DNA from: Crambe crambe
Lineage: Eukaryota; Porifera; Demospongiae; Poecilosclerida; Crambeidae
Reading direction: 5' to 3'
Length of the DNA stretch: 64,000 bases
Assembly: GCA_963924555.1 (NCBI GenBank)
Contig: OZ004598.1
Coordinates: 4,054,501 to 4,118,500, forward strand
Under the pieces are notes generated by a model, which worked only from the letters and a program-made list of their open reading frames with translations, ran no database searches and had not been told where the DNA came from. The first letter of the stretch is position 1. Each line of letters opens with the position of its first letter. Positions 20,701 through 64,000 of the stretch are shown here, piece by piece. The position numbers and the translations under genes are program-made.

Positions 20701-23700
20701 ATGTTTTCATGGATTTTTTTACTTCAAGGAGCTATTTTTTCTTGTGCTTGGGGATGTGGACTGAAAGATGTATGTGGAGCTGGTGGCTTTATATCAAGAA
20801 GTAAGATTATCTAAACAGGTCATAACAAGTTATCATCGAAAATTGGAAGTATGACAGATAGCTAGCTACGCAAAGTTTTCATGAACCTCTGCCAGAATGT
20901 TGGCAGAGCCAATCAGATCGTTGATTTATTAGCTAATTGTCACACACTAGATCACATGTGCATGACATCATCGTGCCAGAATTAGTTCTGCGTACTATTA
21001 TTAGGCCTTGGATGTGAAAGTTGAAGTTCTGTCTACAGTAAGTGCAGTAAAGTAAATCTTGTATGGCACAACTGTGCTATGATCTGAGGTCAGACCAAGA
21101 ACTAGTTATCAAGCATCATCCAAGAAAGAAGAAGGCAATCACAAACTTCAAGGTCTATCAAGCCCACATATTTGATTGGAATTTGTGGTTAAAGTCTGAT
21201 GTAATATGATATAGTCAACATTCCATTTGGATATGAAAACCCCCTCCCCTTTCTTCCGCAATACGTCTGGCTCGGAAGACTATGGTATGGGACCCAAAGA
21301 GCCCATAAATGGGAAAAGCCCATATCTGATAACATAAAGAAAAGGGGAATAATGGAAGTTGTTAGGCATGAAGTGAACATATCTAGCTATCTCTCTCCTC
21401 GCTTTGAGCAGCCAGTTGTCCAAAAGTATGAAGTGAAGAGGGTCTATGCTTCAGTGCAGTATCAAATGCTTCACAGGCTTGGGAGTGACATGCTTTGTCT
21501 AACTCTTCAAATTGTGGGTCCTGGGGGAATATCAGTTTGAACTTTGAACTAGCTAAAAATAATAATAGTAATGTATCACTCGCTTCACATGACTACCCTC
21601 CATATAAAGTCAAGGTTGACATTTGTACATTAAATATGGCACCATCATCATGAAGATACTAGACTACAAGTCAAGATTAGTACAGCTGCAACTTAGCTAC
21701 GCAATATCACAATGGTGACATTGTGAATGTGTCCATATTAAAGTCAGAAGACATTGAATTTGCTATTTACAGCACTTAACTTATTATATGTACCTTGTTT
21801 GAGTGACTCGACATACTTTTTCCTCACAGAAAAATTAATGCTTGGCTAGTTATGGGCTTTGCATGTCATAGGCATCATGCACAAAGAATTGAGTGTCGTT
21901 AATAATACAAGCACCTGCCTGTATTATTAAACAAATCATTCTCTTCTCCCCATTTCCCTCCAGCACATTATAATTATCATTATATGCCATTTTTAGCTGT
22001 AGACTCTTCTTCTGACCTTCAAGTATCAGCACGGTGCTCTGGTTCTTCTTCATCCTGGTACATACGGAGATACATGAATGAGAATGACTCACTGGATGGT
22101 TTAGGTGCACCTTTAAGGCTGAATGATTCATTTCGTCAAAGTGGAAATGAGTTGACCATACGTGAGGTCAATGGTTTTGCAGAAGGCACCTACCATTGTG
22201 GAGTGGATAATAATACTATACAACCAGCATCTTTGTGCTTGTTCATGCGAGGTAAAATATCACAGCTATTCATGGGTAATGGGGCAAGTGCAGGCTAATA
22301 TTTGTTAACACTGTAGCCTTATGATTATAGCTAGTGCATAAAAATAAACTTAGATAGCTAAGTTTCCATATAAAAATATAGTATGAAGAAGGAAATGATC
22401 TGAACCAACAGCATGGGTGTAGATCATACAAAGGTTTTTAGGGGGGAGCATTTGAAATGACTTGCTCCTCCCTTCGAATTTTAATTTCCTCCCCCCCCCC
22501 CCAAATAGATATTGTACACAAGAAATTTTTACCACTTTTCTCTAAGACTCTATACTAATTTATTATTATTGAAATACAAAGAGGCAATGCTTCTGCTGTG
22601 CTGGGGACTTATTAACTTTTTATGCTTATTCTCATTTAATCATAATTATTATTATCATCATAGCTAGTTTGTTTTGTTTACCTATTGAAATAAATATGTA
22701 GGAGAACCAGTTTTTACTTCATGTCCTGGCATAAATGGAGCATGTCCCTCAATCATGCAGATAAATGCTACAGAAAACAGTAATGTATCGATTGATACCA
22801 GAATCAACTTTGTGAATGGTGGATTTTGTAATATGACAAAAAAAAATCAGAATACTTACAGTCAGAAAGAATCAAGATGAACAACTGTACCTCTGTTCCA
22901 ACTTAACAGATTTCTCAAACCAACTGTGTGATGACACTGAAAAGTTCATAGTGGACCAGCAGCAGCCTTGTACTGGACCAGATATAACCCTCTGTAAATA
23001 TGACATGAAATTAATATTAGTGAACTTTGGTCCATCTGATGAAGGATTATATAATGTTGAAGTGCAATTTGAAAATGATGGCCGTGGAAGGGGAATGCTG
23101 ATGCTGCAATTCAATATAATACTATCAAATGAAGACACTCCAACTGAAATGCCAAATACTGGTAAGCTACATACAGTAATTAAGAATCTAGTTACTGAGC
23201 ACTTTATAAAAATTATGCATAACTTAAAGAAGAGATGTAGTAATCAATAGCTAATACAATCATGTATGTATACATAGTGTTTGTGGACAGCCTTAATTGC
23301 TGAAGTTTACCTATTAAATATTCATATTTCCCAACATTTCGTGGTTCTCACAGTAGTGTGCAAACAAACATGTGATCCTTGATCATCTCTTTTTTGGATT
23401 ATAATGACAGAGCTATGTAATTAAATTTCAGGTCCCTTCTCACTCCCTACAAGCTTCACCACTTCAACTATCTCAAGTAAGTCACACAATAAAGGACTGT
23501 TGCTACAACCAATTTGACACTTCACCTGTACACATTGTATATCAACCAAAGTTCCACTAACAAAAGAAAGCTCCTCCACAATATAGCTCTCAAATATCCC
23601 TACCTACGTATCTAGCTAGCTGTTTACCTTACTACTTCTGCTACTTCATTCACAAAAGTCGGGATTGCTTGCTCAAAAATGGAGTATAGCTAGGTTGCTA

Positions 23701-26700
23701 TTTCTAGCAGAAGTAGTAGGATAAGTATTGAAGATGAACAACTGGATGAATATCCTGGTTGTTTGGCATTTTGAGAGTGTTCTTTCTTTGCAGTTAGCTT
23801 TTCCAAGGATATTGTATCAAATCTTGCATAGGAATAATTATAGTATGTCAGGCGTGTGCGACCCCCCGGAAAAATCAGGAGGGTCTGGTGACCCATATAT
23901 ACACGTTTGGTGATCCTGGAATGTAATTACTACCACTTACTACGGTCTGGTTAGTTTACATTAGCAACTAAAACTTTGCGCGATGGAATGTTTGCGCAAT
24001 TGCTGCATACAGTGTGCACTGGCTACTCTTCTAGTTACAGTAGCTATAGGCTACAGGTTACCTTTGAGGCTAGGTCAGTTCCAGATTTGAAAGCAGTCAT
24101 CCATGAAGTAGTCTCTTCTCTAGGATTCAAGCTAAAGTTGCAGCTAATTTGCAGCAAGAAGAAAGCACACTTGCAGTTTCCACAGATCTGGCAGATGATG
24201 AAACGCAAAATGTCCTTTGGATCGGAATTCTACTTAAGTTGAATGAAGCGATCGCGATCCGCAACTATCGTTGCAGTTGCACTAGTCATGTGTACTAGTA
24301 AGTCCAGACCCTTAGGGTCATGTAGCCAAGGAGAGACAGAGCTCAATCTCCTGAAAGTATAGCCAAATTCTCTCTCTCTCTCTCTCTACCTCTCTACTAA
24401 CCTTTGTCCAGTACCAGCCTTGAATGCATCACGATTAAATGAAGTTTTGCTCTGAAATATTTTTAAAATCTATAATTAACGATCTCTGCTACAATCTAGC
24501 TAATGCAGCTAATGCACCAGATTGAGTTGGGACAATATCAAGATGGAAGACAAGTCTGGCAAAAGAGGCATGGCATTGAGACCCCTTAAGGTTTATGCGC
24601 CCTCTGCCATTATGAATTCCATACCAGTAATCAAACAAAATGGACACTTTATGTTTGACTCCTCTAAAAATTGTCTTTTTGAATGTTTCTTCATTCCATT
24701 GAACTTTGTTGAAATCGATGCAAACTGTTTTAATGATATGAAATCCTTTTGCTTTGAGATAAACATACCACTTTCTGCTTTTAAGAGCTTCAGATCGTAC
24801 ACACTTGTAATGGGATGAGGCATACATGATTTGCACATAAACAATATCTTTAGTTGCATGTTCTAAGAAAAACTCCTTCGTCACTAACTTGGAGGATTTG
24901 TACTTTGAACTCATGTGATTCCAATGACGAATATCAAACAAGTCGCTAAATGTTAGGTGGTTTTCTTCACTCGTTTCAAAGTGAAAAATATTAGCTCCTT
25001 CTTCTTTCACTGACGGCTCCACTACTTTGGAAATGTTCACAGAATGGGCCCAACATTGCAGATCACACAGGTTGTTGAGAGCATTTGCTGTTTGCTCCCA
25101 AATGCGTAGGCTGAGAGCCATTGGTTCTGATGGGAGATTTCTCAATGGAAGGTTTCCTATTCGTACTGGATCAGATGTATGACTTCTCAATCTGCCATGA
25201 GAAATTAATTCAGTTAGAGTAAATGATCAAAGATCGAACACCATGCATTATCGACACACTATATCTCAGGAACGACAGTATGTAGAACCAAGTTTAAACT
25301 ACCAAAGTGGAGTACAAACCTTCCTTATTCTGTCACCAAAAAAATGTTTTAGTACCTGTTGCTATTTCAAAGCAATAGCTAGAAATGTAGCTTCACTTAA
25401 ACCCTTTTCATTAATTGCATGGGCATTGATAAATGTTAGCGCAATGCAGCGCAAAGACGATCAGGAAGCAAACCCTGAGGCTGTGGGGAAACAAGCACAT
25501 CATTCCATCTTACAAAGTGAAGTATGTTTTCTCCTTGCAGCAACTTTAGCTTGAATCCTAGAGAAGAGACTACTTCATGGATGACTGCTTTCAAATCTGG
25601 AACTGACCTATAGCCTTGAAGGTAACCTGTAGCCTATAGCTACTGTAACTAGAAGAGTAGCTAGTGCACACTGTATGCAGCAATTGCGATTGCGCAAAGT
25701 TTTAGTTGCTAATGTAAACTAACCAGACCTAGTAGTCGTGCACGCCAGACTAGTTTGCTTCCTAATCGTCTTCGTGGGATTCGCGCTGCATTGCACTAAC
25801 AGTGCCCACGCAACCACAGTCATTTCATAAGCAGTACATAATTTATATGCATACCTATGAATCATGGGTAAGGTCACCAAACCTGTATGTATAATTATGG
25901 CCTCCCCACTCAAAGAATACTTTTTTTAACACATGTCTTACTTTTCTCTCCCTGCATGTCCAGATGCACTTTCTAGTGAAAGTATTGCCGGAATTGTGGT
26001 TGCAGCTATCGTCATTGGGGTAATCGTCATGATTGCTATTCTCATCATTTACTACAGATGTTGTAAAAAAGGTATGAATAGAACTGATGAATGCAAATAA
26101 GCTTAGCTTACAATGTTGCTGAGAATGAAAGATCGTGATCATGTGCAAATTAGCTTCCCACTATAGGACAAACAAACAAACAAACAAACAAATAAACAAA
26201 CAAACAAAAACAAAAACAACAGCAGACTGCACTCCAAATATCTCTGTAGACATGGTAGCCCCTCACCATTAATAGAAAAAGAACTTTCCTAGTCACCAAT
26301 TTATAGCAGCTGTGGTAAATTTAATTCCATCATGTCTTAAATTTACTTTTAAATATGGTATATATATCATTTCACCAGTTGTATTTGTAAGACCCGATAT
26401 GGTAGCAGTGATTGGTGATAGGATAGTCACAGTGGGAGATTCTGCTGAACATGTCAACATCTATTCTAAACAACTGAGGAAAATGAAATCCTTCAAACTG
26501 AGAGGAGGAAACGAACCACGTCCGAGAGGACTATCAACAGATGGTACACATCTCTTCATTTCAGATAAAGCAAATCAATCTATCACAAAGTACACAATTA
26601 AAGGTAAAAAAATTGTTGAAAGCAGAAATACATTTGGTGGTCGTTGTGGCACTGCAATTGACACAGACAAAGGAAGAGTATATGTAGCACATGAATCTGC

Positions 26701-27142
26701 TCATAAAATTGAAGTGCTGGACTTGGATCTTAACTCGGTCGGCCTCGAATTTGGTGAAGAAGGTGATCAAAGGAAACAGTTCAAGCAACCTTGTGATGTG
26801 GCAGTGGCCAGAGTTGATGACACTGTTTATGTATCAGATACTGGCAATAACCGTATACAAGTTTTCTCTGGTGATGGAGAATACATCAGAGAGTTTGGTA
26901 AGGACCACCTTAGCGAACCTGCAGGATTATGTGTCGATCATAATAATCGTGTATTGGTCACTGATCATGGTCATCACCGTGTATGTATCTTCAATGCCAT
27001 TGGAGAGTTACTTGATACATTTGGTCAAAATGAAGAAATAAAAGCAAACTTTGAAGACCTTTATGGTATAGCAGTTGACAGTGATGGAAAGATCTACACA
27101 GCGGACTATGCTGGTAACAACCTGCAAGTTCATTGTTCTTAA
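20701..27142 (+). CDS. Ig-like / transmembrane / NHL-propeller receptor, copy A (one frameshift)
   Basis: Exons 20701-20800 (signal peptide, MFSWIFLLQGAIFSCA), 21997-22251 (Ig-like: RCSG, SSWYIRR, LTIREV, GTYHCGV), 22702-23161 (second Ig-like, Cys-rich: SCPG, CTGPDITLCKYD, DEGLYNVEV), 23432-23476 (Ser/Thr stalk), 25964-26071 (TM helix AGIVVAAIVIGVIVMIAILI then RCCKK stop-transfer), 26379-27142 (six NHL-type blades, for example VYVSDTGNNRIQVFSGDG and VLVTDHGHHRVCIFNAIG). All introns are phase 1. Length about 576 residues. Exon 3 has one extra A in a nine-A run (22838-22846), which breaks the frame; either a sequencing error or a pseudogene. The NHL part resembles that of TRIM-NHL proteins, but no RING or B-box is seen. 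Predicted as a cell-surface receptor; ligand unknown. Confidence 0.8.
22838..22846 (+). other. Nine-A run carrying a +1 frameshift in copy A exon 3
   Basis: Exon 3 of copy A is 460 bp, one more than a multiple compatible with phase-1/phase-1 borders. Copy B (60159-60593) is 435 bp and fully open, and the fragment at 27874 has no homopolymer here. The extra base lies in this A run. Confidence 0.75.
23944..25729. mobile_element. 1.8 kb DNA element with about 200 bp terminal inverted repeats
   Basis: The left arm (23944 to about 24145) and the right arm (about 25535 to 25729) are near-perfect reverse complements (for example gtctggttagtttacattag inverted at the far end). It lies in intron 4 of copy A, before the TM exon. 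It contains an antisense open frame (24489-25190) but no recognisable transposase, so it is non-autonomous. Confidence 0.8.
24489..25190 (-). CDS. Open frame carried inside the 1.8 kb inverted-repeat element (possible captured host sequence)
   Basis: 233 codons without a stop; no ATG near the 5' end (the first Met is about residue 23, EPMALSLRIW), so it looks like an exon or fragment. Not recognised with confidence. Segments such as NLCDLQCWAH, FSDLFDIRHWNHM and LVTKEFFLEHATKDIVYVQ have the look of an animal Golgi-type O-fucosyltransferase-like protein, but this is an impression only. It runs opposite to the receptor gene that hosts the element. Confidence 0.4.
   Translation of the reverse strand: MRSHTSDPVRIGNLPLRNLPSEPMALSLRIWEQTANALNNLCDLQCWAHSVNISKVVEPSVKEEGANIFHFETSEENHLTFSDLFDIRHWNHMSSKYKSSKLVTKEFFLEHATKDIVYVQIMYASSHYKCVRSEALKSRKWYVYLKAKGFHIIKTVCIDFNKVQWNEETFKKTIFRGVKHKVSILFDYWYGIHNGRGRINLKGSQCHASFARLVFHLDIVPTQSGALAALARL
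26162..26221 (+). repeat. (ACAA)n microsatellite
   Basis: Runs of caaa units in intron 5 of copy A. Confidence 0.9.
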
Positions 27143-27873
27143 TATTTTTCTTTCTACACAACTTTATAGTGTACTGTAGTTACTGGTATTTTCTATTAAG
27201 TTAATTTTTTACTTATGACATGAAATTAAGACTGTATGTAATTTCTAGTGTATTATTTTCCTGTTTTTCTTTCTTATTTACTGTAAATTTTCAATTATGC
27301 TATTTCGTTGTACTGCTTACCTGTAGTTAATTTTTACATACGTCATGGTAATTAATAACTGTTTTCATGTGATTATTTTCATTGTTGAACTTCATTGTTG
27401 AATGTGACCACAAAAATGAATTATTTTTATGGTATTCAATTTTACAATACAATTATTGAGCAGCTGTTATTGCAGTGCTTCATCTGTTCTGAAATGTCTG
27501 GATGGTAGTCTGAAGTAGCAACTATGTCCCATGGCTATTATAGGGAACCTCCAAAATTCTAATGAACACACTTGGGGACCCAGCCTGTCCTCTGTTGAGG
27601 TTGTCCTTAGAAGTTATTTAGAGTGTATATAAGATTGTTGAGAGGTCCTCTTTATTTTACATGACTATACTCTCACATCCAAAAAATATATATATATCCT
27701 GCATATCGTGGTTTGGACAGTTTTCTACACCAGTCTCTTGTACTTTGAGTGTCTACTGCTGCTACTGCTTTTATGGTCACTGGTACACAAGAAAGTCAAC
27801 ATATTTTAACCAGTTATCTCTAAGACTCTTATATTTTGTGCTTGCATATATATTTTTTGAAATAAATATGTAG

Positions 27874-28242
27874 GAGAACCAGTTATTACTTCATGTCCTG
27901 GCATAAATGGAGCATGTTCCTCAGTCATGCGGATAAATGCCACAGAAAACAGTAATGTATCGATTCATACCAGAATCAACTTTGTGAATGGTGGATTTTG
28001 TAATATGACAAAAAGAATCAGAACACTTACAGTCATAAAGGATCAAGATGAACAACTGTACCTCTGTTCCAACTTAATTTTTTTCAAACCAACTGTGTGA
28101 TAGCACTGAAAAGATTAAAGTGGACCAGCAGCAACCTTGCACTGGACCAGATATCACCCTCTGTAAATATGACATGAAATTAATATTACTGAACTTTGGT
28201 CTATCTGATGAAGGATTATATAATGTTGAAGTGGAATTTGAA
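27874..28242 (+). pseudogene. Third, broken copy of the receptor's exon 3
   Basis: Begins with the same acceptor context (aaatatgtag) as exon 3 of copy A and translates EPVITSCPGINGACSS. A deletion near 28074 (aacttaatttttttc) shifts the frame, and homology stops near 28242 where a Penelope-like fragment begins. It lies 0.7 kb downstream of copy A. Confidence 0.8.
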
Positions 28243-28249
28243 AATAATT

Positions 28250-29062
28250 ATTGGTCGTTGATCATGCTTCTTAGATTGTTTATTAGAGGTGGGCAATGAT
28301 GGTAAAATTTTATCCACAGTATATAGGAAACAGACACACACGGATAGGTATTTAAATTATAGATCACACCATCCAATACATGTAAAAAGAGGAGTTATTA
28401 AAAGCTTGTATGACAGAGCCACAAGGGTTACTACGCATGAAGAGGACTTGGTTAAGGAGCATATGCATCTTAAAAATTTTTTTGTGAATAATGATTACCC
28501 AGAAGCCTTTCTCTCTGCAACTTTAAATCCCATAGCACCGAAACCTAGGGAAAATAGTAGTAATAGTGAAGAAAGACAGAAACAAATAGTAATTCCATAT
28601 GTTAAAGGCCTTAGTGAAGACATTAGGAGGGTTTGTAGAAAGTTTGATATTAGGGTTGTTTTTAGATCAGGGGTTAGTTTGAGATCCAAACTTTCTAAGA
28701 TTAAGGATAAGTTACCATCTGACCAAAATTCTAATGTTGTTTATAGGGTACCTTGTAGTTGTGGAAAATTTTACATTGGTGGAACGGTGAGAAGGCTGGA
28801 AACTAGGCTGAAGGAGCATAAGGAAGCTTGCCTACGAGGAGAACAAGAGAAATCTGCTGTTGCTGATCATGCCTGGAGTAATCATCATCCTATATTATGG
28901 AAGGAAGCTTCAGTTGTAGATCAAGCTAGGACTAGGAAGAAGCTGCTTCTAAAAGAAGCGCTTCATATTGGTTTAACTTCAGAAGAGCAGCGTTTTAATA
29001 GCGATGTAGGTCTAGAACTTCAAGGTTGCTGGGTTTCTACGCTTAAAGCCTTAGGGAAATAG
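28250..29062 (+). mobile_element. 5'-truncated Penelope-like element (RT tail plus GIY-YIG endonuclease)
   Basis: An open frame of about 257 codons ends at a stop at 29060. The start resembles the thumb region of Penelope-like reverse transcriptases (STVYRKQTHTDRYLNYRS, HPIHVKRGVIKSLY). The C-terminal part carries a GIY-YIG endonuclease variant (VPCSCGKFYIGGTVRRLE, then RLKEHKEACLRG and AVADHAWSNHHPI). The first Tyr of GIY is replaced in this copy (KFYIGGT). Catalytic RT motifs are absent: it was inserted truncated, breaking the receptor exon copy. Confidence 0.85.
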
Positions 29063-30723: not shown

Positions 30724-31514
30724 AAAGCCAGGTCCACTGGACCTGCCTAAATTTCAGCAGCAAAACTGGACCAGGTCCACTGTTTTCCCCTGCCAAAAAT
30801 GGACCTGCTTGGATTTCGACAGCGAAACTGGAACCGGGTCCACTTTTTTCCCCTGCCAAAAATGGACCTGCCTGGATTTCGGCAGGAAACTGGACCGAGT
30901 CCACTTTTTTCCCCTGCCAAAAATGGACCTGCCTGGATTTCGGCAGGAAACTGGACCGGGTCCACTTTTTTCCCCTGCCAAAAATGGACCTGCCTGGATT
31001 TCGGCAGGAAACTGGACCGGGTCCACTTTTTTCCCCTGCCAAAAATGGACCTGCCTGGATTTCGGCAGGAAACTGGACCGGGTCCACTTTTTTCCCCTGC
31101 CAAAAATGGACCTGCCTGGATTTTGACAGCGAAACTGGACCGGGTCCACTTTTTTCCCCTGCCAAAAATGGACCTGCCTGGATTTTGACAGCGAAACTGG
31201 ACCGGGTCCACTTTTTTCCCCTGCCAAAAATGGACCTGCTTAGAATTTGACGGCGAAACTGGACCGGGTCCACTTTTTTCCCCTGCCAAAAACGGACCTG
31301 TTTGGACCAGGTCCACTTTTTTCCCCTGCCAAAACTGGACCGGGTCCACTTTTTTCTTGACAAAATGGACCAGGTCCACTTTTGGCAAGGCAGGTCCACT
31401 TTTGGCAGAAAAAAATGGACCCCCCACTTTTGGCAGAAAAAAGTGGACCCCCCGGTCCATTTTTTTCTGCCAAAAGTGGACCGGGGGGTCCACTTTTTTC
31501 CCGGTCCACTTTTG
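30724..31514. repeat. 61-62 bp satellite with palindromic core
   Basis: About eight regular units (tccacttttttcccctgcc, aaaatggacctgcctggatt, ggcaggaaactggaccggg) from 30770 to 31290, then shorter scrambled pieces to 31514 with inverted copies (ccaaaagtggaccggggggtcc). Unit length changes from 61 to 62 bp with the inner word (ttcggcaggaaac versus ttttgacagcgaaac). Long open frames on both strands are by-products of a stop-free unit. Confidence 0.9.
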
Positions 31515-35760: not shown

Positions 35761-38590
35761 ATTAAGGATCCATGGCCATTACTGTCCTAAACGATAAGGT
35801 GCATTCTGTTCCAATGGTCACCAGTATCCTCTATGCTAGTACAAACTATATATAATTTATATCACTATTCCTAGTTGAGGAACATTGTTTTCTAGAAGAG
35901 GAGTTGATTAAGGACCCATAGCCGTTACTCTCCAAATAGATAAGGTGCGTTCTGTTCCAATGGTCACCAGTATCCTCTATGCTAGTACTAACTATATCTG
36001 CACTTGATGATGTATATCTCTATTCCTAGTTGAGGAACATTGTTTACTAGAAGAGGGGCTGATTAAGGACCCATGGCTGTTACTCTTTGAAAAGATAAGG
36101 TGCATTCTGTTCCAATGGTCACCAGTATTCTCTATGCTAGTTAAAACTATATCTGCATTTGACGATTTATATCTCTATTCCTAGTTGAGGAACATTGTTT
36201 TCTAGAAGAGGGGTTGATTAAGGATCCATGGGCCGTTACTCTCCAAAAAGATAAGGTGTGTTCTGTTCAAATGGTCACCATTATCCTCTATGCTAGTACA
36301 AACTATATCTGCACTTGATGATCTATATCTCTATTCCTAGTTGAGGAACATTGTTTACTAGAAGAGGGGTTGATTAAGGACCCATGGCTGTTACTATTCG
36401 AAAAGATAAGGTGCGTTCTGTTCCAATCGTCACCAGTATTCTCTATGCTAGTTAAAACCATATCTGCACTTGACGATTTATATTTCTATTCCTAGTTGAG
36501 GAACATTGTTTTCTAGAAGAGGAGTTGATTAAGGACCCATAGCCGTTACTCTCCAAATAGATAAGGTGCGTTCTGTTCCAATGGTCACCAGTATCCTCTA
36601 TGCTAGTACTAACTATATCTGCACTTGATGATGTATATCTCTATTCCTAGTTGAGGAACATTGTTTACTAGAAGAGGGGCTGATTAAGGACCCATGGCTG
36701 TTACTCTTTGAAAAGATAAGGTGCATTCTGTTCCAATGGTCACCAGTATTCTCTATGCTAGTTAAAACTATATCTGCATTTGACGATTTATATCTCTATT
36801 CCTAGTTGAGGAACATTGTTTTCTAGAAGAGGGGTTGATTAAGGATCCATGGGCCGTTACTCTCCAAAAAGATAAGGTGTGTTCTGTTCAAATGGTCACC
36901 ATTATCCTCTATGCTAGTACAAACTATATCTGCACTTGATGATCTATATCTCTATTCCTAGTTGAGGAACATTGTTTACTAGAAGAGGGGTTGATTAAGG
37001 ACCCATGGCTGTTACTATTCGAAAAGATAAGGTGCGTTCTGTTCCAATCGTCACCAGTATTCTCTATGCTAGTTAAAACCATATCTGCACTTGACGATTT
37101 ATATTTCTATTCCTAGTTGAGGAACATTGTTTTCTAGAAGAGGAGTTGATTAAGGACAGATGGCCGTTACTCTCTAAAAAGATAAGGTGCGTTCTGTTCC
37201 AATGGTCAAACTATATCTGCATTTTAATGATCTATGATCTATATCTCTATTCCTAGTTGAGGAACATTGTTTTCTATAAGAGGGGTTGATTAAGGACCCA
37301 TGGCCGTTACTCTCCAAAAAGATAAGGTGTGTTTTGTTCAAATGGTCACCAGTACCGTCTTTGCTAGTACAAACTATATCTGCACTTGGTGATCTATATC
37401 TCTATTCCTAGTTGAGGAACATTGTTTTCTAGAAGAGGAGTTGATTAAGGACCCATGGCCGTTACTCTCCAAAAGGATAAGGTGTGTTCTGTTCAAATGG
37501 TCACCAGTATCCTCCATACCATATTTGCACTTGATGATCTATATCTCTATTCCTAGTTGAGGAACATTGTTTTCTAGAAGGAGTTGATTAAGGACCCATG
37601 GCCGTTACTCTCCAAAAAGATAAGGTATATTCTGTTTAAATGGTCACCAGTATCCTCTATGCTATATCTGCACTTGATGATCTATATTTCTATTCCTAGT
37701 TGAGGAACATTGTTTTCTAGAAGAGGAGTTGATTAAGGACCCATGGCCGTTACTCTCCAAAAAGATAAGGTCGTTCTGTTCAAATGGGCACCAGTACCCT
37801 CTATGCTAGTACAAACTATATCTGCACTTGATGATCTATATCTCTATTCCTAGTTGAGGAACATTGTTTTCTAGAAGGAGTTGATTAAGGACCCATGGCC
37901 GTTACTCTCCAAAAAGATAAGGTATATTCTGTTTAAATGGTCACCAGTATCCTCTATGCTATATCTGCACTTGATGATCTATATTTCTATTCCTAGTTGA
38001 GGAACATTGTTTTCTAGAAGAGGAGTTGATTAAGGACCCATGGCCGTTACTCTCCAAAAAGATAAGGTCGTTCTGTTCAAATGGGCACCAGTACCCTCTA
38101 TGCTAGTACAAACTATATCTGCACTTGATGATCTATATCTCTATTCCTAGTTGAGGAACATTGTTTTCTAGAAGGAGTTGATTAAGGACCCATGGCCGTT
38201 ACTCTCCAAAAAGATAAGGTATATTCTGTTTAAATGGTCACCAGTATCCTCTATGCTATATCTGCACTTGATGATCTATATTTCTATTCCTAGTTGAGGA
38301 ACATTGTTTTCTAGAAGAGGAGTTGATTAAGGACCCATGGCCGTTACTCTCCAAAAAGATAAGGTCGTTCTGTTCAAATGGGCACCAGTACCCTCTATGC
38401 TAGTACAAACTATATCTGCACTTGATGATCTATATCTCTATTCCTAGTTGAGGAACATTGTTTTCTAGAAGAGGGGTTGATTAAGGACCCATGACCGTTA
38501 TGTTCAGGTATGCTTGGTCACCAGTATCCTCTATGTTAGTACAAATCATCTGCACTTCATGATCTATCTTTCTATATATCTAGTTGAGGA
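35761..38590 (+). repeat. 155 bp tandem repeat, left arm, with higher-order structure
   Basis: About 18 units marked by attaaggacccatgg, gataaggtgcgttctgttcc and ctagttgaggaacattg. Start-to-start distances are 146-156 bp. Four-unit blocks repeat with a period of 621 bp (35907 and 36528), and two-unit blocks of about 296 bp repeat at 37578, 37874 and 38171. Confidence 0.92.
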
Positions 38591-39376: not shown

Positions 39377-39679
39377 GCATTCAAGTGCATGGGTACACCA
39401 TGTATTCATCAAAGGTATGTAATTAAGAGTACATTTCTGCTGTTAATTAACATAATCATTTTGTGTGTGTGTGTTTTTTTGTTGTTGTTTTTTTTGGAGT
39501 CAGATTTCTCAGTAGCTGGTGGTAGAGAAGTTCTCTTCAGGGATAATTTCTGAATCAGCAAGTCTTGATCATTGTAGCATTTTATATGATTGTACCTCCT
39601 CCTATTATTGCACATACAGGGAAGCTCAACTCCATCTGAGTGTCCTGGGCACGAGAAAGAGATATAGATCATCAAGTGC

Positions 39680-41858: not shown

Positions 41859-41875
41859 TGGTGGCAGCGGTGGGA
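41859..41875 (+). other. Primer-binding site of the LTR element
   Basis: tggtggcagcggtggga starts right after the left LTR with TGG, as expected for pairing with a tRNA CCA end. The tRNA was not identified. Confidence 0.65.
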
Positions 41876-51276: not shown

Positions 51277-54200
51277 ATGGAGATATTTTCATTATTACTC
51301 CAAGGAGCTATTTTTTCTTGTGCTTGGGGATGTGGACTGAAAGATGTATGTAGAGCTGGAGGTTTTATATCAAAAAGTAAGATTATCTAACATCAAAAAT
51401 TGGAAGTGTGATAGATAGCAATACACATGGGAAGAGTTGTCATGCTGATTCGCTTCCACACCCTCTTATTGAGGCTCTATTCTATGGACCCATTATACAC
51501 AATACTTTTGTACTATGTACTGTGGTATCTGTAGTAAACTAATGTGACGTCATGTTGTATCACGGGATTTGAGTTGTATACTATAATTATGCTGCGTGTG
51601 CTTTCCCTATTATAATAATTAATCTACTGAGTAGCGTAAGCAACCAGCATCTATTATTGATCGGGTTTCCTAACTGAGAGTACTGAAACAATCCACGTAG
51701 GAAACCGGAAATGCACGGAAGTATGCGGAGAAAGGTGCATGCAACAAGAGTCGGTGTGTTTTTAGTTAGCTCTATTTCTTCAATCTCTCTCTCTCTGTGT
51801 GTTTAAGATCTGCAGTGCAGGTAAAGTTTTCTTCTTATTCATTTTTATCAAGTTAAAGTCACTAAAGTATCAGCGAGTCCATACTAACTACTTAACAATA
51901 ATAATCTTGCTTGCTATAAAGTATCTATACCACACGTAAAGGAGTAAGAATAAGGCTGTCTACTAAACGTAAAAGGTCTCGTTCCATCTCTCCGCCAGTT
52001 CCAAAGTCGAGACCATCAGTAAAGAGGAAGACGTGGACTCCAGAGAGTATGGCAGCAGCACTGAAGACAGTGGCAGAAGGAACAGGAGTTAATAAAGCAG
52101 CAAGACCATGGCGTGCCGGCTACTACACTGTAAAAACAAAAATGTGTAAAAACATCCCATTTTTAGGTTATCTGAGTTGCAATTGTACCTTGTGTCAGTG
52201 GTAAGGTGACAGGGGCGGATCTAGAATTCTGGAAAGGGGGAGACACAAGAGATTAGTATCCGCGCGGTGAAAATTTTATGACCACGCCCACTTTTGCTTA
52301 ACCACACCCTTTTTGTATATCCATTTGATGTTTTGCACAAATCATGAACCCTATATAGCAGTATAAAAGCAGTATTAAAATGCAATGATTCATATAGTTC
52401 TTGTTAATTATCAAGAGGATTTTGGAGAAGCAGTCTTCTTGGACGCTTGGCAGCAAAGGCACTAACAATAGCATCATAATCCAAAGAGATATCTTTGTGG
52501 ATATATAGTAGCATTAGAGCATTAAGACGACTTTGGCCCATTTTACTTCTGAAATCAGATTTAACATACTTCAAAGCAGAATTGCCTCTTTCCACAGTTG
52601 CTGCTGTTACTGGAATAATCATAAGTAAGTGCAAAATTGTGCAAATATTGGGATAAACTTTGCTGTCCACTTGTTCAAGTGTTTCACTGATGTTTTGAGG
52701 AAGAATTGAGGAGCAGCTCTTCCATCGTTGAGTCCACAACTTGAATTCTTGATTAAAACTTTCTGGTGCTGGTAAATCTTGCTTAAAATGTTCATATAAT
52801 TGCTTAACTCTCTCTTCATTGACACTATTGATAGTAATAGGCAAAAGCTGAAGACCTTCAATAGCTCGTTTGTTGTGTTCAGTGAATCTTGATGAGAGTT
52901 CTGACAATAAATGATCAAGAAATGGAAGAAAAACTGTGCGTCTCCAATATACTTGAGGAGTGTCTGCTTCAACATTAGAACGAAACGTCTGTCGACCACA
53001 TCTCCTAGGAATTGACAGCTCATTTTTATCATGAAGAGAAATTGTCTTAGACATAGATTTATACACCGTCTCAAATTCCTTCTCTACATCCTCTCGAATC
53101 TTCTTCAGCACATCCTTGACTACTTCCACTTCTTTGTATGCTGTCAACACATCTTGTGAAGATCCCTGTAGGAGACAGCTTAAAGCCTTGGTGTAACCAG
53201 AAAAGTAAAGATTGGTATGAAATGATGCTATGAATTCATCTGAGGCTATTGATCGAAGCAGTCCACTTGCTTCAGTAATACTTTTCGAATTCCAAGTACC
53301 ACTACAATTACTAGCAATTGCCTCCAAACACAGAACTGTAGGCTCATACATTTCTGCAAACTCTGCCAACACAGTGTGTCGTTCAACCCAACGTGTCTCA
53401 CACATGATCTTCACTTTGGTGGAAGAAACTTTCTTGACTCCTGCACTTTCTCTTCTTTCATTAACTTCCATGACTGCATCCTCTAATCTACGTTGTCTCT
53501 TTGGAGAATACTTGAAATATATACCCAAAGCTTTTAGATCTGCTAGCATATGCTGAATACCAGGAACTACACAAGCTTTTGAAAGTGCCAAGTTTAGCTG
53601 ATGACTGCTACAATGGTAGTATGAGGCTCTAGGAACAGATTCTTGAAACTTTGCTCTGCAGCCATTCAGATGACCTGACATGCTTCCAGCTCCATCATAA
53701 CCTTGAGCTCGACAGAGCTGAGGATCAATTCCAAAGTCAGCCAGAGCATCAAGTATTTTTTGCAGATATCAGCTCCACTAACACTTTCACAAGCAATGTA
53801 GTTCACTACTCTCTCCACAGGCTCATTGTTCTTTACATAGCGAAGGGCTAGCCCAAGTTGTTCCCAGCCACTGGTGTCAGTCACCTCATCAGCTTCCAGA
53901 CCAAAGAATTGGTTAGCTTTTACTTCTGTTATAATTTTTGTTAAAATAAATTCACCTATACAATCAAGGAGATCATTCTGGGATGTTTTTGAAAGATAGG
54001 TTGCATTTTTTGCACTATTCTTCTCCAAGAAATCCTTTAAAATAACATCTCCCGACTCAATTCGGAAATCAATTAGAGCACGAAATTTTCCTTTATTGAT
54101 ATCATCTGATGTTGAATCATCCCTGTGGCCTCTAAGTGCAATTCCTTGCCTACCACAATATTCCAGACATTTGATGATAGAAGTAAGGACAGTGCGATTT

Positions 54201-57200: not shown

Positions 57201-60200
57201 AAGTTTATATGCACCTCTGCCTAGCCTTACATCACCCTTGGTGAGGTGTGCTTCCAGGTCATACTCCCTTATCGATGGCACAGTAACCTCCCCCAACTGC
57301 AGAAAGCCAAAGAAGTACATACAACAGGTAGCCTAGAGCATTATGTTGTCTCTGTTGCACTCATCTTTCTCTGAGGTGATTGGAGTCTCTTCTGCTGCCA
57401 CGACCCCATATAGTTCTTGTTTGCTTCAACTTAATACCATTAAGCGTGCATTCCAGCAGGGGGTTCCCTGTTTCCCACACTCTGTATCCAGTGTATCACC
57501 AATAAATATAGCCCTTGATTGACAAGTGCTTCCCCCACCAGCACTATCACAAAATGACAGGGCTGCTCCTCCTTCACTGGAGGGGAGTGTTACTTTTCAA
57601 GATTCCTGTGCTGGCCTGCTGCAAATACCTATTGATGTATCAATAAACTGGCCAACCATCTCATCCAGTCTTCGTGGCCTCTGGACCACCAGGCCTTGAT
57701 TGGATGTGGCATGGGAGGAGTGGCCACACTTCAGGGAGGCACCAATTGAACTCCTACCAATTTTGTAGCAGTGGTTGGGGTGCAAGGTACAGTCCTGTGT
57801 CACTGCAGCAGCTAGCTAGCTGGCCATGCAGGAACGAACATGCGCGATTGAGCGACGACCACGACCAATCACACCCACCTGATAGAAAATTTGGTCCAGC
57901 CAAAACCGGAGCAGCCGGACCAGTTCCGCCGCCCATGGTGTGTACTGACTGATTGTCACAGTGGCACAGGACTGTGGTAGTCGACCCTTTTTCTTGTGGT
58001 AAAAGGTCAGCACCGCCAGACTAGGACTGTGGCCCTTCTCCACCTTGCACCCCAAATTGCAACCACTGTTACTGCAATTGGTAGGAGTTCAATTGGTGCC
58101 TCCTTGAAGTGTGGCCACTCCTCCCATGCCACTTGGAACCACTCTCACATCCCCACATACCTATATGCATCGCTCCAGATTTCCACCCTGCCGTCTCTCC
58201 TTGATCCCTCAATATCATTGATACCCCATTCCACTCACCTAGGAACACGTACCACCATTAATAGTGCTCGACCCCTTTTTCTCATAAATGCCAGGGCAGA
58301 CCTCAACCCAAAGAGAGGGTCAAGTCCACATACAGCTGGTCCTCCCACAACAACCCACAGTCATCCGGATGCATCAGGACATTCCTATAAGCCGATTTCA
58401 AATCAATCGCCATCTGTGCTCCCCTCCCTATCTCCAGCACCCTTTCTGCAAGGGTCGTTTATAATCCATAAAACCATGTTCTAACTATTTTATATCCTGC
58501 TATAGCATACCTAGTTACCTTTGCCTTGACATTTTAGCGGCCGTGTTTTCTTGTCTCCATGGAGATCAAATGTTTCCATGGACAATGGGCAATATGACTC
58601 ATATTGTATATTTCTGCTACATGATCCACTGTTATAATTAATGTGAGGGAGCAGAGGCTTCTGTTGGTACCATCATCATACTGCTATACCTTGTGGGGAT
58701 GATGAGGTCCAGTATGAGTCTCCACTTGGCCATTGCTCACTCTTTGGTATCACCCCAAATGGGCTAATCTGAGCCTCCTTCCAGCTTTCCCATGGCATAG
58801 GCCCTATCGGGCAGCCTGCTTCCTCTCCTTGAGAATATATTCCTCCTCCACCTGCTAATTTCATATGGCACCTCCCCCCCTCCCCCCTTTAAACTAGCTA
58901 TCTACACAAATCTCCCCCTTTCCTTCCACCACATTATATTATGTTATATGTTACATAGCTTCTTCTGATGTTCAAGTATCAGCATGGTGCTCTGGTCCTG
59001 ATGCATCTTCTTCATCCTGGTACATACGGAGATACAGGAATGGGAATGACTCACTGGACGGTTTAGGTGCACCTTTAACGCTGAATGATTCATTTCATCA
59101 AAGTGGAAATGAGTTGACCATACATGAGGTCAATGGTTTTGCAGAAGGCACCTACCATTGTGGAGTGGATAATAATACTATACAACCAGCATCTTTGTGC
59201 TTGTTTGTACGAGGTAAAATTAATATCACACTGATGTATATGCTGGATATACAGAACAAAGAAGATTGATCCCATTTCCATCCTTCATCCCTAGGGTTGT
59301 TTTGAGCAATGGTCATCCCTACATTTTTTTATTTTTCATTTCATTTCCCCCTCACTTATCCCTGGTCTTTTTTTCTCTCTTTATGGTTTCATTAGCTATG
59401 TACGCATAAATGCAAGATTTCTATGTATAGATGAAAGAAGTTTCTTGAGTAGCTATGTACAGTTCTCCAATAGCATAGCAGCCCAATGATTATTTATCAG
59501 CAAGTCAAGGTTTGAAATGTTGAGCTATACTTCGAGGTTGAGGATGCAGATGAATAAAAATAGAGTCTACTGGTAGATGGATCGGTGAATCTAAATCCCA
59601 GAGTTGATCGTTGATAGCCAGTAAACAATCAAACTAAGCATGCATCTGCACCAGATAGAACAAATGATAACTTTTAAATCTCCCTTATGAAATCTAATGG
59701 TAGTTATTCGGCAGTTATTACATAGATGCCTCATGTAGAAGTGCTAAACTGGGGTTTATCTTTAGATAACGAAGAATCCAGCGACTTACTTGCTTGCCAT
59801 ATTCCTGAAATGATAAGCTCTCCCTGGTCCTGAAACTATGGATGCACGTGACAAGTTTCCAATCCTGTTCCGTGTCATATACGTATCTATGTCCCTACAT
59901 AGAGAGAGCGGTAATGCAAATCCATGGAAATGATTCCTTCTTTTTAATATTGCAGAACTAACATTTATGTACATTTATTTAGGGGGTGAGGCAAGAGGGC
60001 TTGTGGGGGGGGGGGGGGGGGGGGGGGGGGGGGAGCTGACCCAACCTAGGGATCTGGGGGCATGCTCAGTAGTTTCCTGAGCCTGCGGGATGGGGTCCTG
60101 CAGTATATTATTATCATCGTAGTTACTCATTTACTTGTATGCATTATTATTTTTATAGGACAACCAGTTTTTAGTTCATGTCCTGGAGTAGCATGTCCTT

Positions 60201-63200
60201 TGATTATGCAGATAAATGCTACAGAAAACAGTAATGTGTCAATCGATACCAGAATCAAGTTTGTAAATGGCGGATTTTGTAATTTAACCAAAGAAATCAG
60301 AATGCTTTATGTCAAAAAGGATCAAGAACAAGTGTACCACTGTTCCAACTTAACAACTTTCTCAAACCAACTGTGTGACAGCACTGATAAGATTAAAGTG
60401 GACCAGCAGCAGCCTTGCACTGGACCAGATATCACCCTCTGTAAATATGATATGAAGTTAATATTACTGAACTTTGGTCCATCTGATGAAGGATTATATA
60501 ATGTTGAAGTGAAGTTTGAAGATGATGGCAATGAAAGGGAAACGCTGATGCTGCAATTCAATATAACACTATCAAATGAAGATACTCCTAATGGTAATGA
60601 CTAGCTAATACTGAGCACTTCAATAATACTAGGGCAATGTTCAACATTCAGTTAACAGCGAGCGAGCAAGCAAATATTCTTTAGTGCTACAACTCTTTAA
60701 AAGATTTTGCTGTTGAGTTTATATGTAACAAAGCACTTAGATAAGCTTTTAGACTATAGCTAGTCACAATCAAGGAATCTCATTGGTCCATTTGGTGAAT
60801 TCTATTCACTTAGAATCACACCTTATGGCACTTAGAATCACGCCTTATAGCACTTAGAATTCACTTGCCCTAGGTAAACCCGGTAAAGATGGTCATTCCA
60901 ATTGGTCCAATTCTAGCAACGCATCACGGTGGCAACGGTTATTATTATTATTATTGTTTCTAGGTGTGCTCTGATTCATGTTTGTTGCATTTAAAAACCG
61001 TGGTTATTGTTTCCAAGTGCGTGTTGAAGTAAGTTAAACAACTCCAGTGATTGGCTATAGTCTAAATAAGTTAGACACCTCGACCAACGGGATCTACGGT
61101 CTGTTTAGAAACCTTCGGGCCCTTAGTAGCGCCCTCGCTGCGCTCGGGACGCTACAGCCCAGGGCTCTCAGGTTTCTAAATAGACCGTAGATCCCTTGGT
61201 CTCGTTGTCTAACTATTATGTAGAGCCTCTACAACTACTACTATAGCAATGTGCCTGATATTACTAAGAGTGGTGGTTCCAACCAGGAAGCTCCATGCAT
61301 AAAAAGCTGCCACAAGCACTTAGATAAGCCAAGGCCTACAATCCACTTAGATAAGCCAAGCCCCTCTATGATAAAAGGCTGTAGAAAACAATTTAGTTCG
61401 ATTACATGCACATCATGCACCCGCAGGGCGCTACTATTGCACAACACACGTACACATATACATACGCCTGGGGCATTTTGGAGTGTAGACATTATATAAT
61501 TATATCTACAATTTCAATGAGTCATGACCTGAGAGTCAGCTCACTCGCTGCAATAACTTTGATATAAAAGGAAAAGATGTGATAATAGATCAATTCTTTG
61601 AGTATACAAGTAAGGGAAAAAGTATTTCGTGAAATGAAAAAAGATGTAGGGATGACCACTGCTCAAAAAAGTAAGGAAACAAGAAGGATGGAAATGGGAT
61701 CAATCTTTGTTCTGTATATCCAGCCAACAATCCCTACATATACATCGGGTAGCTTCGGATTATAGTGTAGTAATGTACGTATATGTAGGGATTGTTGGCT
61801 GGATATACAGAACAAAGATTGATCCCATTTCCATCCTTCTTGTTTCCTTACTTTTTTGAGCAGTGGTCATCCCTACATCTTTTTTCATTTCACGAAATGC
61901 TTTTTCCCTTACTTGTTCCTGGTCTTTTTTTCCTCTCTTTTATGGTTTTAGCTATGTATAGAGTTCATTCTTCTATATGTATGCAGGGACAGATGAAAGA
62001 AGAATAGTTCTCCAATAGCACAGCAGCCCAATCATTATTAATTGTATCAACCAGTCAAGGTGTTGTGTCATTGTTGAGCTATACTTGGAGGTCGAAGATG
62101 CTGAAATAGAGTCTACCGGTAGATGGATTGGTGAATCTAAATCTCCGAGTTGATAGTAGTCTATCATCATTATCTAGAGCTAGTTAGCTAGCTAGCTAGA
62201 CAGCTGAGTAATATTATAATTTCGAATAATTGGATATCAAATTGTATGCGCATGCGTATTATAGAAAAGATGGCTTCCACTAATTGAATTAGTCGAGTGC
62301 TGTGCTCCGTAGTGTCTCCTTTTTCATCGACTCTTTCGAGGATCAACAGGTAGAAAAGATCGTAGTTTGTAGAATTTGGAGTGGATTTATCCAGAAATCA
62401 TAGCTGTAGCTTGAGTGGTCCGAGAGATATGGTTGTCTAAGAAGAATAATAATAAGAATAAGGCCACTATTTGTAGAATCCTAGTTTCCTGTCCAAGAAG
62501 ACATCCACAAGTGCTGCGGGCGGGCGGTTATTATAATTATTCTATTACTGGTTCGTTGTTTGTCTCAAGAGTCCTGTCTTTATTATTCACTAGTCTCGCG
62601 GGCCACGAGACTAGTCATTCACCACGGGCTTTCCCAAAAAGAGCTGCGTGAAGCCAGCTCTACTGCGCGCATGAGCAATGGCAGGCGCTAGGCAGTAATA
62701 ATATTTTTTGATGCGGTGACATTTTCAATACGCGGGCGATGGACAGGAAACAATCATTCTATTAATAGTGGCCTTAAAGGTCCTTTCTCACCTTCCACAA
62801 GAGCTATGTAGCTATTAAATTAATATTATTTTCATATTAAAGGTCCTTTCTCACCCCCCACAAACTCCACCACTTCAACTATCTCATGTAAGTCACAGTT
62901 GCTGAGTACAATAACCTATTGCTACAACCTATTTGAGCCTTTTCTACACCACACAACCAAAGTCTACTAACAAGAGAAACCTCAGCTCTACTTTTTAAAG
63001 TCAAATATCCCTAGCTACCTATTAAAAGTTTACATTAGTATGCATTACTGAAGTCCACTCCCCAATTTTAGCTGCCTCACCACATTTACCTTACTACTTC
63101 TGCTACTTCACTACTGAAGCCAGGATTATTTGCTCAAAAATGTGTTGGATGGGGTGGAGTGAAGTATTTCTAGTAGGGCTATGGGGTAGCAGGTAACAAC

Positions 63201-64000
63201 AGTATATAAAAGGGACTCATTGATACTACAGATACTGTAAAGTGCTTACCTGGCCATAGTTTAAGTTGGTTAATGCCCTCAGCTTCTGAGTTTAGAACCT
63301 TTCAGCTGTTGCTATAATGATGGCCCTCGGGTGGGCTGTGCCCTTGGTCATCATGATAGCAACAGCTCTCAGGTTCCTAAACTCCTTGACTTTGTGCAAT
63401 AACCTACACTTCTTTTACACATGTCTCTTGGTTTCCTCTCCCTGTCCAGATGCACTTTCTGGAACTCTGATCGCAGGGATTACCATGGTTAATGTCATCA
63501 TTCTACTGATACAGATTATCGTTTACTTGACGAAAGGTTAGTCAGTTGCCACGGAGATTAAACATTATTTTCCATGGACTATGGGCAGTATGACTTTTAT
63601 ACCGCCCACGCATGGGATATAAAATCCGCAGTACAATTTATAAATAGCACAGATTTATAAAACGTACCCAACAGCTACATATGAATTGCTTACTTTTTAA
63701 ATTTATCATTTTACCAGTTATACGTCCTGATATGGTGGTAGTGATTGGTGATATGATAGTCACAGTGGGAGATTCTGACAAACATGTCAACATCTATTCT
63801 AAAAAACTGTGGAGGAAAATAAGATCCTTCAAACTAGAGAAAAAAGGGGGAAAAGAACCATGTCCACGAGGAGTATCAACAGATGGTAAATATCTATTCA
63901 TTTCAGACAAAGCATATAAATCTATCACAAAGTACACAATTGAAGGTGAAAAAAAAGCTCAAACATTAAATTTTGATGGTTGTTGTGGCATTGCAATTGA
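51277..64000 (+). CDS. Ig-like / transmembrane / NHL-propeller receptor, copy B (open; runs off right edge)
   Basis: Exons 51277-51376 (signal peptide MEIFSLLLQGAIFSCA), 58959-59213 (Ig-like: WCSG, SSSSWYIRR, GTYHCGV), 60159-60593 (second Ig-like: SCPGVACPLIM, CTGPDITLCKYD), 62843-62887 (GPFSPPTNSTTSTIS stalk), 63450-63536 (TM: AGITMVNVIILLIQIIVYL), 63718 to the edge (start of the NHL propeller, DMVVVIGDMIVTVGDSDKHV). Every junction is phase 1 and no frame break is seen over 401 codons. The first intron is 7.6 kb because it holds a pogo relic, a hAT element, a MITE and a DIRS relic. Same architecture and order as copy A, 30 kb upstream, so this is a tandem paralogue. A surface receptor role is inferred from topology; signalling route and ligand are unknown. 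Confidence 0.85.
52210..54966 (-). mobile_element. hAT-family DNA transposon inserted in the pogo relic
   Basis: Ends caggggcggatctag (52210) and, inverted, cttggatccgctactg (ending 54966) match the usual hAT terminal pattern CAGNGGCGGATC. An 8 bp target duplication could not be confirmed. Contains one transposase gene with a single frame break. Confidence 0.82.
52404..54811 (-). pseudogene. hAT transposase (ZMYM/TTF-type zinc finger, DUF4371 region, hAT dimerisation), one frameshift
   Basis: About 800 residues from ATG 54811. N-terminus KRKDQLRLHSFFLPVSK, then a TTF/BED-like zinc region (REWFDMFPFLAYS, GLYCLACVLFP, SHFAAHA), the catalytic core with FFGLEADEVTDTSGWEQ and YDGAGSMSGHLNGC, HCSSHQLNLALSK, CETRWVERHTV, and the C-terminal dimerisation motif TVERGNSALKYVKSDFRSKM. 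The frame breaks at a six-T run (53756-53761; As on the coding strand), where one base appears lost. Otherwise intact, hence recent. Confidence 0.88.
56101..56372. mobile_element. MITE with 48 bp perfect inverted ends
   Basis: acccactatatccggcagga onward (56101-56148) is repeated exactly inverted at 56325-56372; each arm also contains a small hairpin (ccatgcggtactgcatgg on the left). In intron 1 of copy B. Confidence 0.88.
56965..58870 (-). mobile_element. DIRS-like retrotransposon relic (RT plus tyrosine recombinase)
   Basis: Minus strand pieces: 58864-58676 (ISPFGVIPKSEQWPSGDSYW, the start of a DIRS-type RT), 58430-58290 (MAIDLKSAYRNVLMHPDDCG, LYVDLTLSLG: RT finger/palm), then 57320-56965 with a tyrosine recombinase segment (FFGFLQLGEVTVPSIREYDL, LTKGDV, LCPVSAIAAYLACSKRAPAS, LKDGPWTSS). 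The catalytic His-x-x-Arg and Tyr part is missing. Many stops and shifts; inactive. Confidence 0.75.
57680..58143. repeat. Inverted repeat inside the DIRS-like relic
   Basis: catgggaggagtggccacac, accaattgaactcctaccaa (57708-57763) recurs inverted at 58075-58132 (ttggtaggagttcaattggt, gtgtggccactcctcccatg) around a 300 bp centre. Either a nested MITE or part of the DIRS structure. Confidence 0.65.
59241..59362. mobile_element. Half copy of the foldback MITE
   Basis: Matches only the right arm of 61607-61915 (gctggatatacagaacaaag, cccatttccatcc, ggtcatccctacat). In intron 2 of copy B. Confidence 0.7.
60005..60033 (+). repeat. Poly-G run (29)
   Basis: Uninterrupted G homopolymer in intron 2 of copy B; length may be unreliable. 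Confidence 0.85.
61071..61212. mobile_element. Small palindromic MITE
   Basis: ttagaca...gggatctacggtctgtttag (61071 on) is mirrored by ctaaatagaccgtagatccc...tgtctaa (to 61212) around a GC-rich centre with its own hairpin (gcgccctcgctgcgctcg). Confidence 0.75.
61607..61915. mobile_element. Foldback MITE, intact copy
   Basis: Arms of about 125 bp, almost perfectly complementary: caagtaagggaaaaagtatt at the left end, and its inverse aatgctttttcccttacttg at the right end. The centre is about 55 bp. Copies at 7724 and 59241. Confidence 0.88.
62460..62775. mobile_element. MITE with imperfect 35 bp ends
   Basis: aaggccactatttgtagaat and tagtttcctgtcc (62460-62496) recur inverted as ggacaggaaac and attaatagtggcctt (62741-62775). 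An inner palindrome actagtctcgcgggccacga lies at 62589. In intron 3 of copy B. Confidence 0.72.

Follow-up and report, generated by a model that had tools for sequence, protein, structure and literature searches.

Genes for a putative family of Ig-like receptors with a cytoplasmic NHL propeller in the genome of the sponge Crambe crambe

A stretch of 64,000 nucleotides (nt) from the sponge Crambe crambe (assembly GCA_963924555.1, contig OZ004598.1, positions 4,054,501 to 4,118,500; called the window in the following) contains two genes in which exons for a signal peptide, two immunoglobulin (Ig)-like domains, one transmembrane (TM) helix and an NHL propeller follow each other on the plus strand. 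Judging from gene models built on genome sequence alone, we consider it quite probable that these genes and their paralogues encode type I single-pass receptors with two Ig-like domains outside the cell and an NHL propeller in the cytosol. An earlier note on gene 1, the copy first described, had proposed a single-pass receptor with the NHL domain directly behind the TM helix, and this architecture is borne out by the exon order at eight loci and by the joined paralogues, of which six out of six are open. The intact gene 2, the genome-wide family, the TRIM-NHL relatives and the kinase and ankyrin exons found behind the same ectodomain were not part of that note.

The two genes of the window

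Gene 1 and gene 2 are labelled W1 and W2, and L-numbers refer to other loci of the same genome. The six exons of gene 1 (Table 1) had been placed correctly with regard to position, order and strand; all junctions are of the GT-AG type and the introns are in phase 1. Also as claimed before, the TM exon encodes a single helix with a basic stop-transfer, seen as a strongly hydrophobic segment followed by RCCKK, and the last exon an NHL propeller, which matches the Pfam profile PF01436 with 85.4 bits (cut-off 20) and the NHL domain of TRIM71 in the PDB with an E-value of 5e-35. The exons were further said to form one spliced frame, and here the exon order and splice sites stand while the continuous frame does not, because exon 3 of gene 1 is frameshifted by one extra base in a run of A residues. 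This exon has 460 nt, compared with 435, 441, 441, 417, 426 and 438 nt, all multiples of three, in the six paralogues with fixed exon ends. A splicing artefact was rejected as the cause of the shift, since exon 3 is a single exon with a length divisible by three in six paralogues. P0129, a protein encoded on an ENA contig no longer than 29,142 nt, shares 93% identity with gene 1 over 113 amino acids (aa) and is open across the site of the A-run, therefore an intact close copy or allele of gene 1 exists elsewhere. A stalk exon like exon 4 of gene 1 is not needed in any of the six joined paralogues, gene 2 included.

Gene 2 has the same architecture as gene 1 (signal peptide, two Ig-like domains, TM helix, NHL propeller) and extends from position 51277 to 496 bases beyond the right edge of the window. 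Its joined exons form one open frame of 551 aa starting with ATG and without an inner stop. The intron between the TM and NHL exons has only 181 nt in gene 2 and 186 nt in L019. Within intron 1 of gene 2, hAT-type and DUF4371 open frames are found on the minus strand (52407-54850).

Table 1. Exons of the two receptor genes and associated features, numbered from the first letter of the window
Feature	Position	Strand	Remarks
Gene 1 exon 1	20701..20800	+	Start and putative signal peptide (MFSWIFLLQGAIFSCAWGCG...), phase-1 end; similar exon in gene 2, L016 and L024
Gene 1 exon 2	21997..22251	+	Ig-like (V-set-like) domain; phase-1 exon
Gene 1 exon 3	22702..23161	+	Cys-rich domain, tentatively Ig-like; one base out of frame, A-run 22838-22846
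Gene 1 exon 4	23432..23476	+	Short Ser/Thr stalk; 45 nt, GT-AG, phase 1
Gene 1 exon 5	25964..26071	+	TM helix and basic stop-transfer; paralogues have a TM exon at the same place
Gene 1 exon 6	26379..27142	+	Six-bladed NHL propeller and stop codon
Gene 2 exon 1	51277..51376	+	Putative signal peptide
Gene 2 exon 2	58959..59213	+	Ig-like domain; 90% identical to gene 1 exon 2
Gene 2 exon 3	60159..60593	+	Cys-rich domain, tentatively Ig-like; intact
Gene 2 TM exon	63450..63536	+	
Gene 2 NHL exon	63718..64000	+	Continues 496 bases past the window, to C21:4118996
Inverted-repeat element in gene 1 intron 4	23995..25688	.	78-nt and 74-nt arms with 96-99% complementarity
Partial duplicate of gene 1 exon 3	27868..28299	+	Likewise frameshifted; further along it is 2 bases shorter than exon 3

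The family across the genome

In the whole genome (143 Mb, 119 contigs) exon 2 gave 33 matches and exon 3 gave 41 matching rows, some of the latter split, and most lie on contig C8. Following eighteen exon-3 loci downstream revealed an NHL exon at eight of them (W1, W2, L014, L016, L019, L020, L024, L033/L023), kinase exons at two (L030, L036), ankyrin exons at two (L032, L035) and a TM exon only at another two (L038, L039). The eight Ig-Ig-TM-NHL loci are spread over contigs C8, C18 and C21, with recurring order and strand of the exons. All six paralogues that were joined (W2, L014, L016, L019, L020, L024) are open from the first Ig-like domain through the second and the TM helix to the stop codon of the propeller, and L033/L023 shows the same four exons in order. 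The internal exons of the joined copies are in phase 1 at both ends, and a phase-1 acceptor precedes the propeller in seven out of seven copies examined.

Outside a cluster on contig C17 there are thirteen close NHL copies, eight of which have Ig-Ig-TM exons upstream and one (L018) a TM exon only. A pattern derived from the TM exons on C8, with up to three mismatches, occurs at six sites in the genome, all of them TM exons of the receptor family (five NHL-type, one ankyrin-type); this pattern misses the TM exons of W1, W2, L024 and L018.

Probable Ig-like nature of the ectodomain

By sequence, the Ig-like signals are weak. For exon 2 the Pfam V-set profile gives 15.3 bits in gene 1 and 20.7 bits in the paralogue L024, both below the cut-off of 26, the top PDB match of an exon-2 profile is CD276 (E-value 1.8e-4), and the predicted model is weak with a predicted local distance difference test (pLDDT) score of 62.6. 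The second domain may tentatively be regarded as Ig-like: exon 3 of gene 2 reaches 16.4 bits with the V-set profile, below the cut-off, exon 3 has conserved cysteines, and AlphaFold predicts mostly strand, with a best pLDDT of 72.1 and a predicted template modelling score of 0.72, two of the five models being near 70 and three below 40.

The propeller and its TRIM-NHL relatives

Eight of the 21 closest NHL matches in the genome are located on C17. Two frames of this cluster were scanned and contain B-box and NHL domains with a sub-threshold filamin match, and a third frame starts with a RING and B-boxes. Four NHL domains from C17 (those of the two scanned TRIM-NHL frames and of two neighbours) are 51-52% identical to that of gene 1 over the domain. 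In the PDB the best match is TRIM71 for the NHL of gene 1 and Thin for that of L016. The teneurin profile TEN_NHL reaches 18.8 bits in gene 1, below its cut-off of 27.1. The TRIM-NHL proteins (TRIM71/LIN41, TRIM2/3, Brat, Thin) share the six-bladed NHL propeller, and among full-length genes the closest relatives observed are TRIM-NHL genes of the sponge itself. The window receptors differ from them in being membrane-anchored, as predicted, and in a faster evolving propeller; filamin was not found, and RING, B-box and coiled coil gave no match when the gene 1 frames of exon 2, TM, NHL and most of exon 3 were scanned, so that the window genes are not TRIM proteins. The exon for the receptor propeller shows kinship with the NHL portion of TRIM-NHL genes and probably derives from one of them.

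Evolutionary rates and exon exchange

Omega was calculated for pairs of copies after Nei-Gojobori with bootstrap intervals, many of which are wide, and the values are pairwise averages only. For the NHL exon of the receptor group omega is 0.81 (W1/W2), 0.68 (L019/L020), 0.92 (L019/L018), 0.51 (L016/L020), 0.32 (L014/L016), 0.76 (L024/L023), 0.86 (L024/L022) and 1.87 (L023/L022). The TRIM NHL pairs show 0.11-0.18, three of the four pairs being near saturation with synonymous divergence (dS) above 1.4. A fair comparison is therefore the TRIM pair L004/L005 (dS 0.21, omega 0.18, interval 0.10-0.31) against receptor pairs of similar dS, namely W1/W2 (dS 0.18, omega 0.81, 0.50-1.28) and L019/L020 (dS 0.23, omega 0.68, 0.44-1.06). 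The faster receptor propellers may reflect relaxed constraint or diversifying selection, and pairwise omega fits either. In the ectodomain omega is 0.23-0.72 for exon 2 and 0.33-1.15 for exon 3.

L014 and L016 have nearly equal NHL exons (5 synonymous differences at 163 sites) and distant second exons (27 at 62 sites; Fisher p 4e-13), exon 2 of L016 resembling L020. This indicates exon exchange or conversion, shown for this one pair.

Possible alternative cytoplasmic modules behind the same ectodomain

Behind the Ig-Ig ectodomain, L030 carries a kinase exon (PF07714, 7e-28) and L032 an ankyrin exon (1.7e-59); L036 is kinase-like by sequence and L035 looks like L032. A phase-1 TM exon was found in L032, and only a candidate donor in L030. 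A receptor tyrosine kinase domain is not present in either gene of the window. With respect to other partners, among the matches listed none of the five TIR matches of the genome and no Death-domain match (150 scored of 965 candidates) lies near an exon-3 match. Genome-wide, at least 150 Death-domain matches (of 965 candidates) stand against only five TIR matches.

Other neighbourhoods of NHL copies were also noted. At L017 an ankyrin open frame (Pfam 2.7e-36) lies on the minus strand about 1.2 kb before the NHL frame, possibly an ankyrin-NHL combination. At L022 two long open frames, likewise on the minus strand, precede the NHL copy; the one that was scanned matches Roc with 30.1 bits (cut-off 27) and, at a score under the threshold, COR-A.

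It is conceivable, if somewhat doubtful, that one Ig-Ig ectodomain with its TM helix, of which the genome has tens of exon copies, joins NHL, tyrosine kinase or ankyrin effectors through exchange of phase-1 exons in a plug-in recognition system, whose inner propeller would have been freed from TRIM-type constraint and would diversify while keeping its frame.

Weighing of the receptor model

According to the model the signal peptide would direct both Ig-like domains to the cell surface, the membrane would be crossed by a single helix and the six-bladed propeller would lie in the cytosol. With the internal exons of the joined copies in phase 1 on either side, exons for the ectodomain, the TM helix and the cytoplasmic part would be interchangeable without loss of frame, and the same ectodomain appears to be fitted with NHL, tyrosine kinase or ankyrin modules. 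Most likely, binding of a ligand outside would gather receptors, and the propeller would dock cytosolic proteins, possibly partners or substrates of TRIM-NHL ligases. The NHL receptor would be related to the Ig receptor kinases but have no kinase of its own.

Several observations weigh against this model or parts of it. Gene 1 is frameshifted as assembled. Four of the eighteen exon-3 loci (L029, L031, L034, L037) have no clear TM or cytoplasmic domain within 4.9-6.2 kb downstream, and four of the thirteen close NHL copies (L015, L017, L021, L022) show no Ig exon in their 10-kb loci and no TM exon up to 7 kb upstream, with the limit that the threshold of this TM scan was 2.6 and the helix of W2, scoring 2.55, would fail it, so that helices may have been missed. 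The NHL copies of L015 and L021 look damaged. In a tree of sixteen NHL rows, eleven labelled as receptor (including L015 and L022, for which no receptor exons were found) against four TRIM rows and L017, the receptor-labelled rows do not form one clade, two changes are needed, and a common origin of the receptor propellers is possible and appears in 12% of the bootstraps. The discordance between exons is weak or absent in W1/W2 (p 0.12) and L016/L020 (p 0.04), and the kinase and ankyrin joins are read from exon order and strand. NHL exons contain 3-10 cysteines, enough that Cys content can not separate inside from outside. Finally, while the sequence shows the exon order, the phases, the open frames of the paralogues, the NHL identity, the kinship with TRIM and the discordance between exons of one pair, we infer from the gene models that the protein is at the surface, which way it faces, that it has a ligand, and that the propeller docks proteins and signals. 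Just upstream of the NHL copies L015 and L021 retroelement open frames were observed, which may have split NHL from receptor exons.

Some of these observations would fit a dying gene family, in which many copies would be relics and the open frames no more than remnants. Besides the frameshift of gene 1 and the damaged NHL copies, the truncated exon-3 duplicate and the intron insertions agree with such a decay, as does the fact that the omega interval of the NHL excludes 1 in only one of eight receptor-group pairs (L016/L020). We nevertheless regard it as improbable, because the NHL pairs W1/W2, L019/L020 and L016/L020 have accumulated 106, 112 and 147 differences and no stop at all, where 4.5, 4.5 and 5.9 stops would be expected without constraint (P 0.012, 0.012 and 0.003), a test in which two of the pairs share L020 and the copies were chosen from open ones. 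Also the omega interval lies below 1 in three of six exon-2 pairs and three of five exon-3 pairs.

A further question is what the propeller binds. The earlier note had spoken of an RNA- or protein-binding propeller, and RNA is bound through the NHL fold in TRIM71/LIN41 and Brat, the closest relatives with a solved structure, which would make the NHL domain an RNA-binding module linking surface recognition to mRNA control. In PMC5908797, LIN41 is described to grip an RNA loop by a basic ring. In zebrafish LIN41 four of six blades have Arg or Lys among the two positions that follow the blade-end Asp, compared with at most one located blade per receptor copy; the scan located five to six blades per copy, including a few false ones, and missed others (e.g. 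a basic blade of L020). The net charge of the NHL domain is -3 to -10 in nine of eleven copies; the propellers of W2 (0) and L020 (+3) are not net acidic, and LIN41 has +1. Judged by sequence, most of the positions with which LIN41 contacts RNA lack a basic residue in the receptors, so that LIN41-type RNA binding is not supported and such a grip seems unlikely. PMC5908797 also states that RNA-contact residues differ between NHL subfamilies, so another mode of RNA binding is possible. Taken as a whole, a role as RNA-binding module has little probability in our view, and a protein-docking module is the more likely guess from these residues.

The order of Ig-Ig-TM and NHL exons could also result from two adjacent genes, one for a short-tailed Ig-TM receptor, the next for an independent NHL protein. 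Retention of the last intron would close the TM frame nearly immediately (...DES, stop) in L014, L016, L018 and L019, so that a short-tailed protein or isoform is possible, and the four close NHL copies lacking visible upstream exons would be in line with separate genes. However, the recurrence of order and strand at eight loci on three contigs and the matching phases and splice sites of the six joined paralogues argue for one gene, as does a TM-NHL intron that can be under 190 nt. In addition, six of seven NHL frames have no start codon before the first strand of the propeller (W2 has one), which makes a separate NHL gene less likely. We give this explanation a small chance, a little below that of the two preceding ones. 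A reversed topology with the propeller outside, like the extracellular or lumenal NHL of PAM and teneurins, is very improbable given the signal peptide and the single TM helix with its basic flank on the NHL side (judged from sequence and hydropathy), the few sequons of the NHL exons (0-3 per 250-279 aa, compared with 2-6 per ectodomain exon of 84-146 aa) and the cytosolic location of the TRIM-NHL relatives.

Other features of the window

The partial duplicate of gene 1 exon 3 (Table 1) belongs to direct repeats of 92-96% identity with a spacing stepping from 5172 over 5171 to 5169, and fits no gene that could be built. Directly behind it an open frame (28262-29059) gives a weak GIY-YIG match of 17.5 bits (cut-off 22.6). 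A 61-nt tandem repeat with about nine copies is located at 30738-31300, followed by two arrays of a 155-bp satellite (35761-38500 and 39658-41453), which are about 1.2 kb apart and have consensus units that are reverse complements of each other. The window further contains a retroelement with an open frame of 1362 aa for reverse transcriptase, RNase H and integrase (41812-45897), and a DDE_3 transposase fragment on the minus strand (48496-48936).

Comparison with known proteins and significance

We know of no Ig-TM-NHL receptor, and in agreement with the earlier note no such receptor family is described in the titles and abstract openings of the literature searched. Sponges are known to possess Ig receptors whose tail is a kinase or a TIR domain. 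An Ig-like ectodomain, a single TM helix and a cytoplasmic signalling domain are common to the sponge Ig-like receptor tyrosine kinases (RTKs) and, as predicted, to the putative family described here, in which L030 and L036 carry kinase exons. The receptor of Geodia cydonium reportedly follows the RTK layout also beyond its Ig-like ectodomain. In the bacterial PknD the kinase is cytosolic and the NHL propeller is outside. PknD, which came up as a PDB match (1rwi), likewise has its propeller near a single TM helix, while the receptors here would have the NHL inside and the Ig-like domains outside.

For the RTK of Geodia cydonium an Ig-like ectodomain is described in PMC12018476; compared with it by description, the window genes carry an NHL propeller where the kinase sits. 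The sponge Ig-TIR ("non-canonical TLR") receptors combine extracellular Ig with an intracellular signalling domain according to PMC8242945, and they differ from the family here, for which no TIR was found beside the ectodomain. A figure legend of this paper names NHL, so that an NHL-bearing immune gene in Halichondria is possible.

The spliced L016 protein was compared with 5.8 billion proteins and gave 269 matches. Those listed (120) extend over 18-52% of L016 and contain Pfam domains of the NHL or propeller type; they are therefore taken as matches to the NHL part. The ectodomain region of L016 alone had no match in this set. With an exon-3 profile 45 protein matches were obtained, 43 from ENA and two from the window itself. 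Five of the ENA matches equal loci of the same genome, and ten are on contigs of 787-3,054 nt and 49-62% identical to its loci, which suggests that these ten come from another assembly.

If the receptors are expressed, an NHL propeller would take the place of the kinase or TIR domain in a surface receptor, and by exon shuffling a family of surface receptors would have acquired a module of cytosolic ubiquitin ligases. The family would then be a genomic example of one ectodomain joined to several signalling modules in an early-branching animal. Should the plug-in reading be true as well, these genes would represent a candidate repertoire, variable on its signalling side, for the recognition of self and non-self or of microbes in an early-branching animal.

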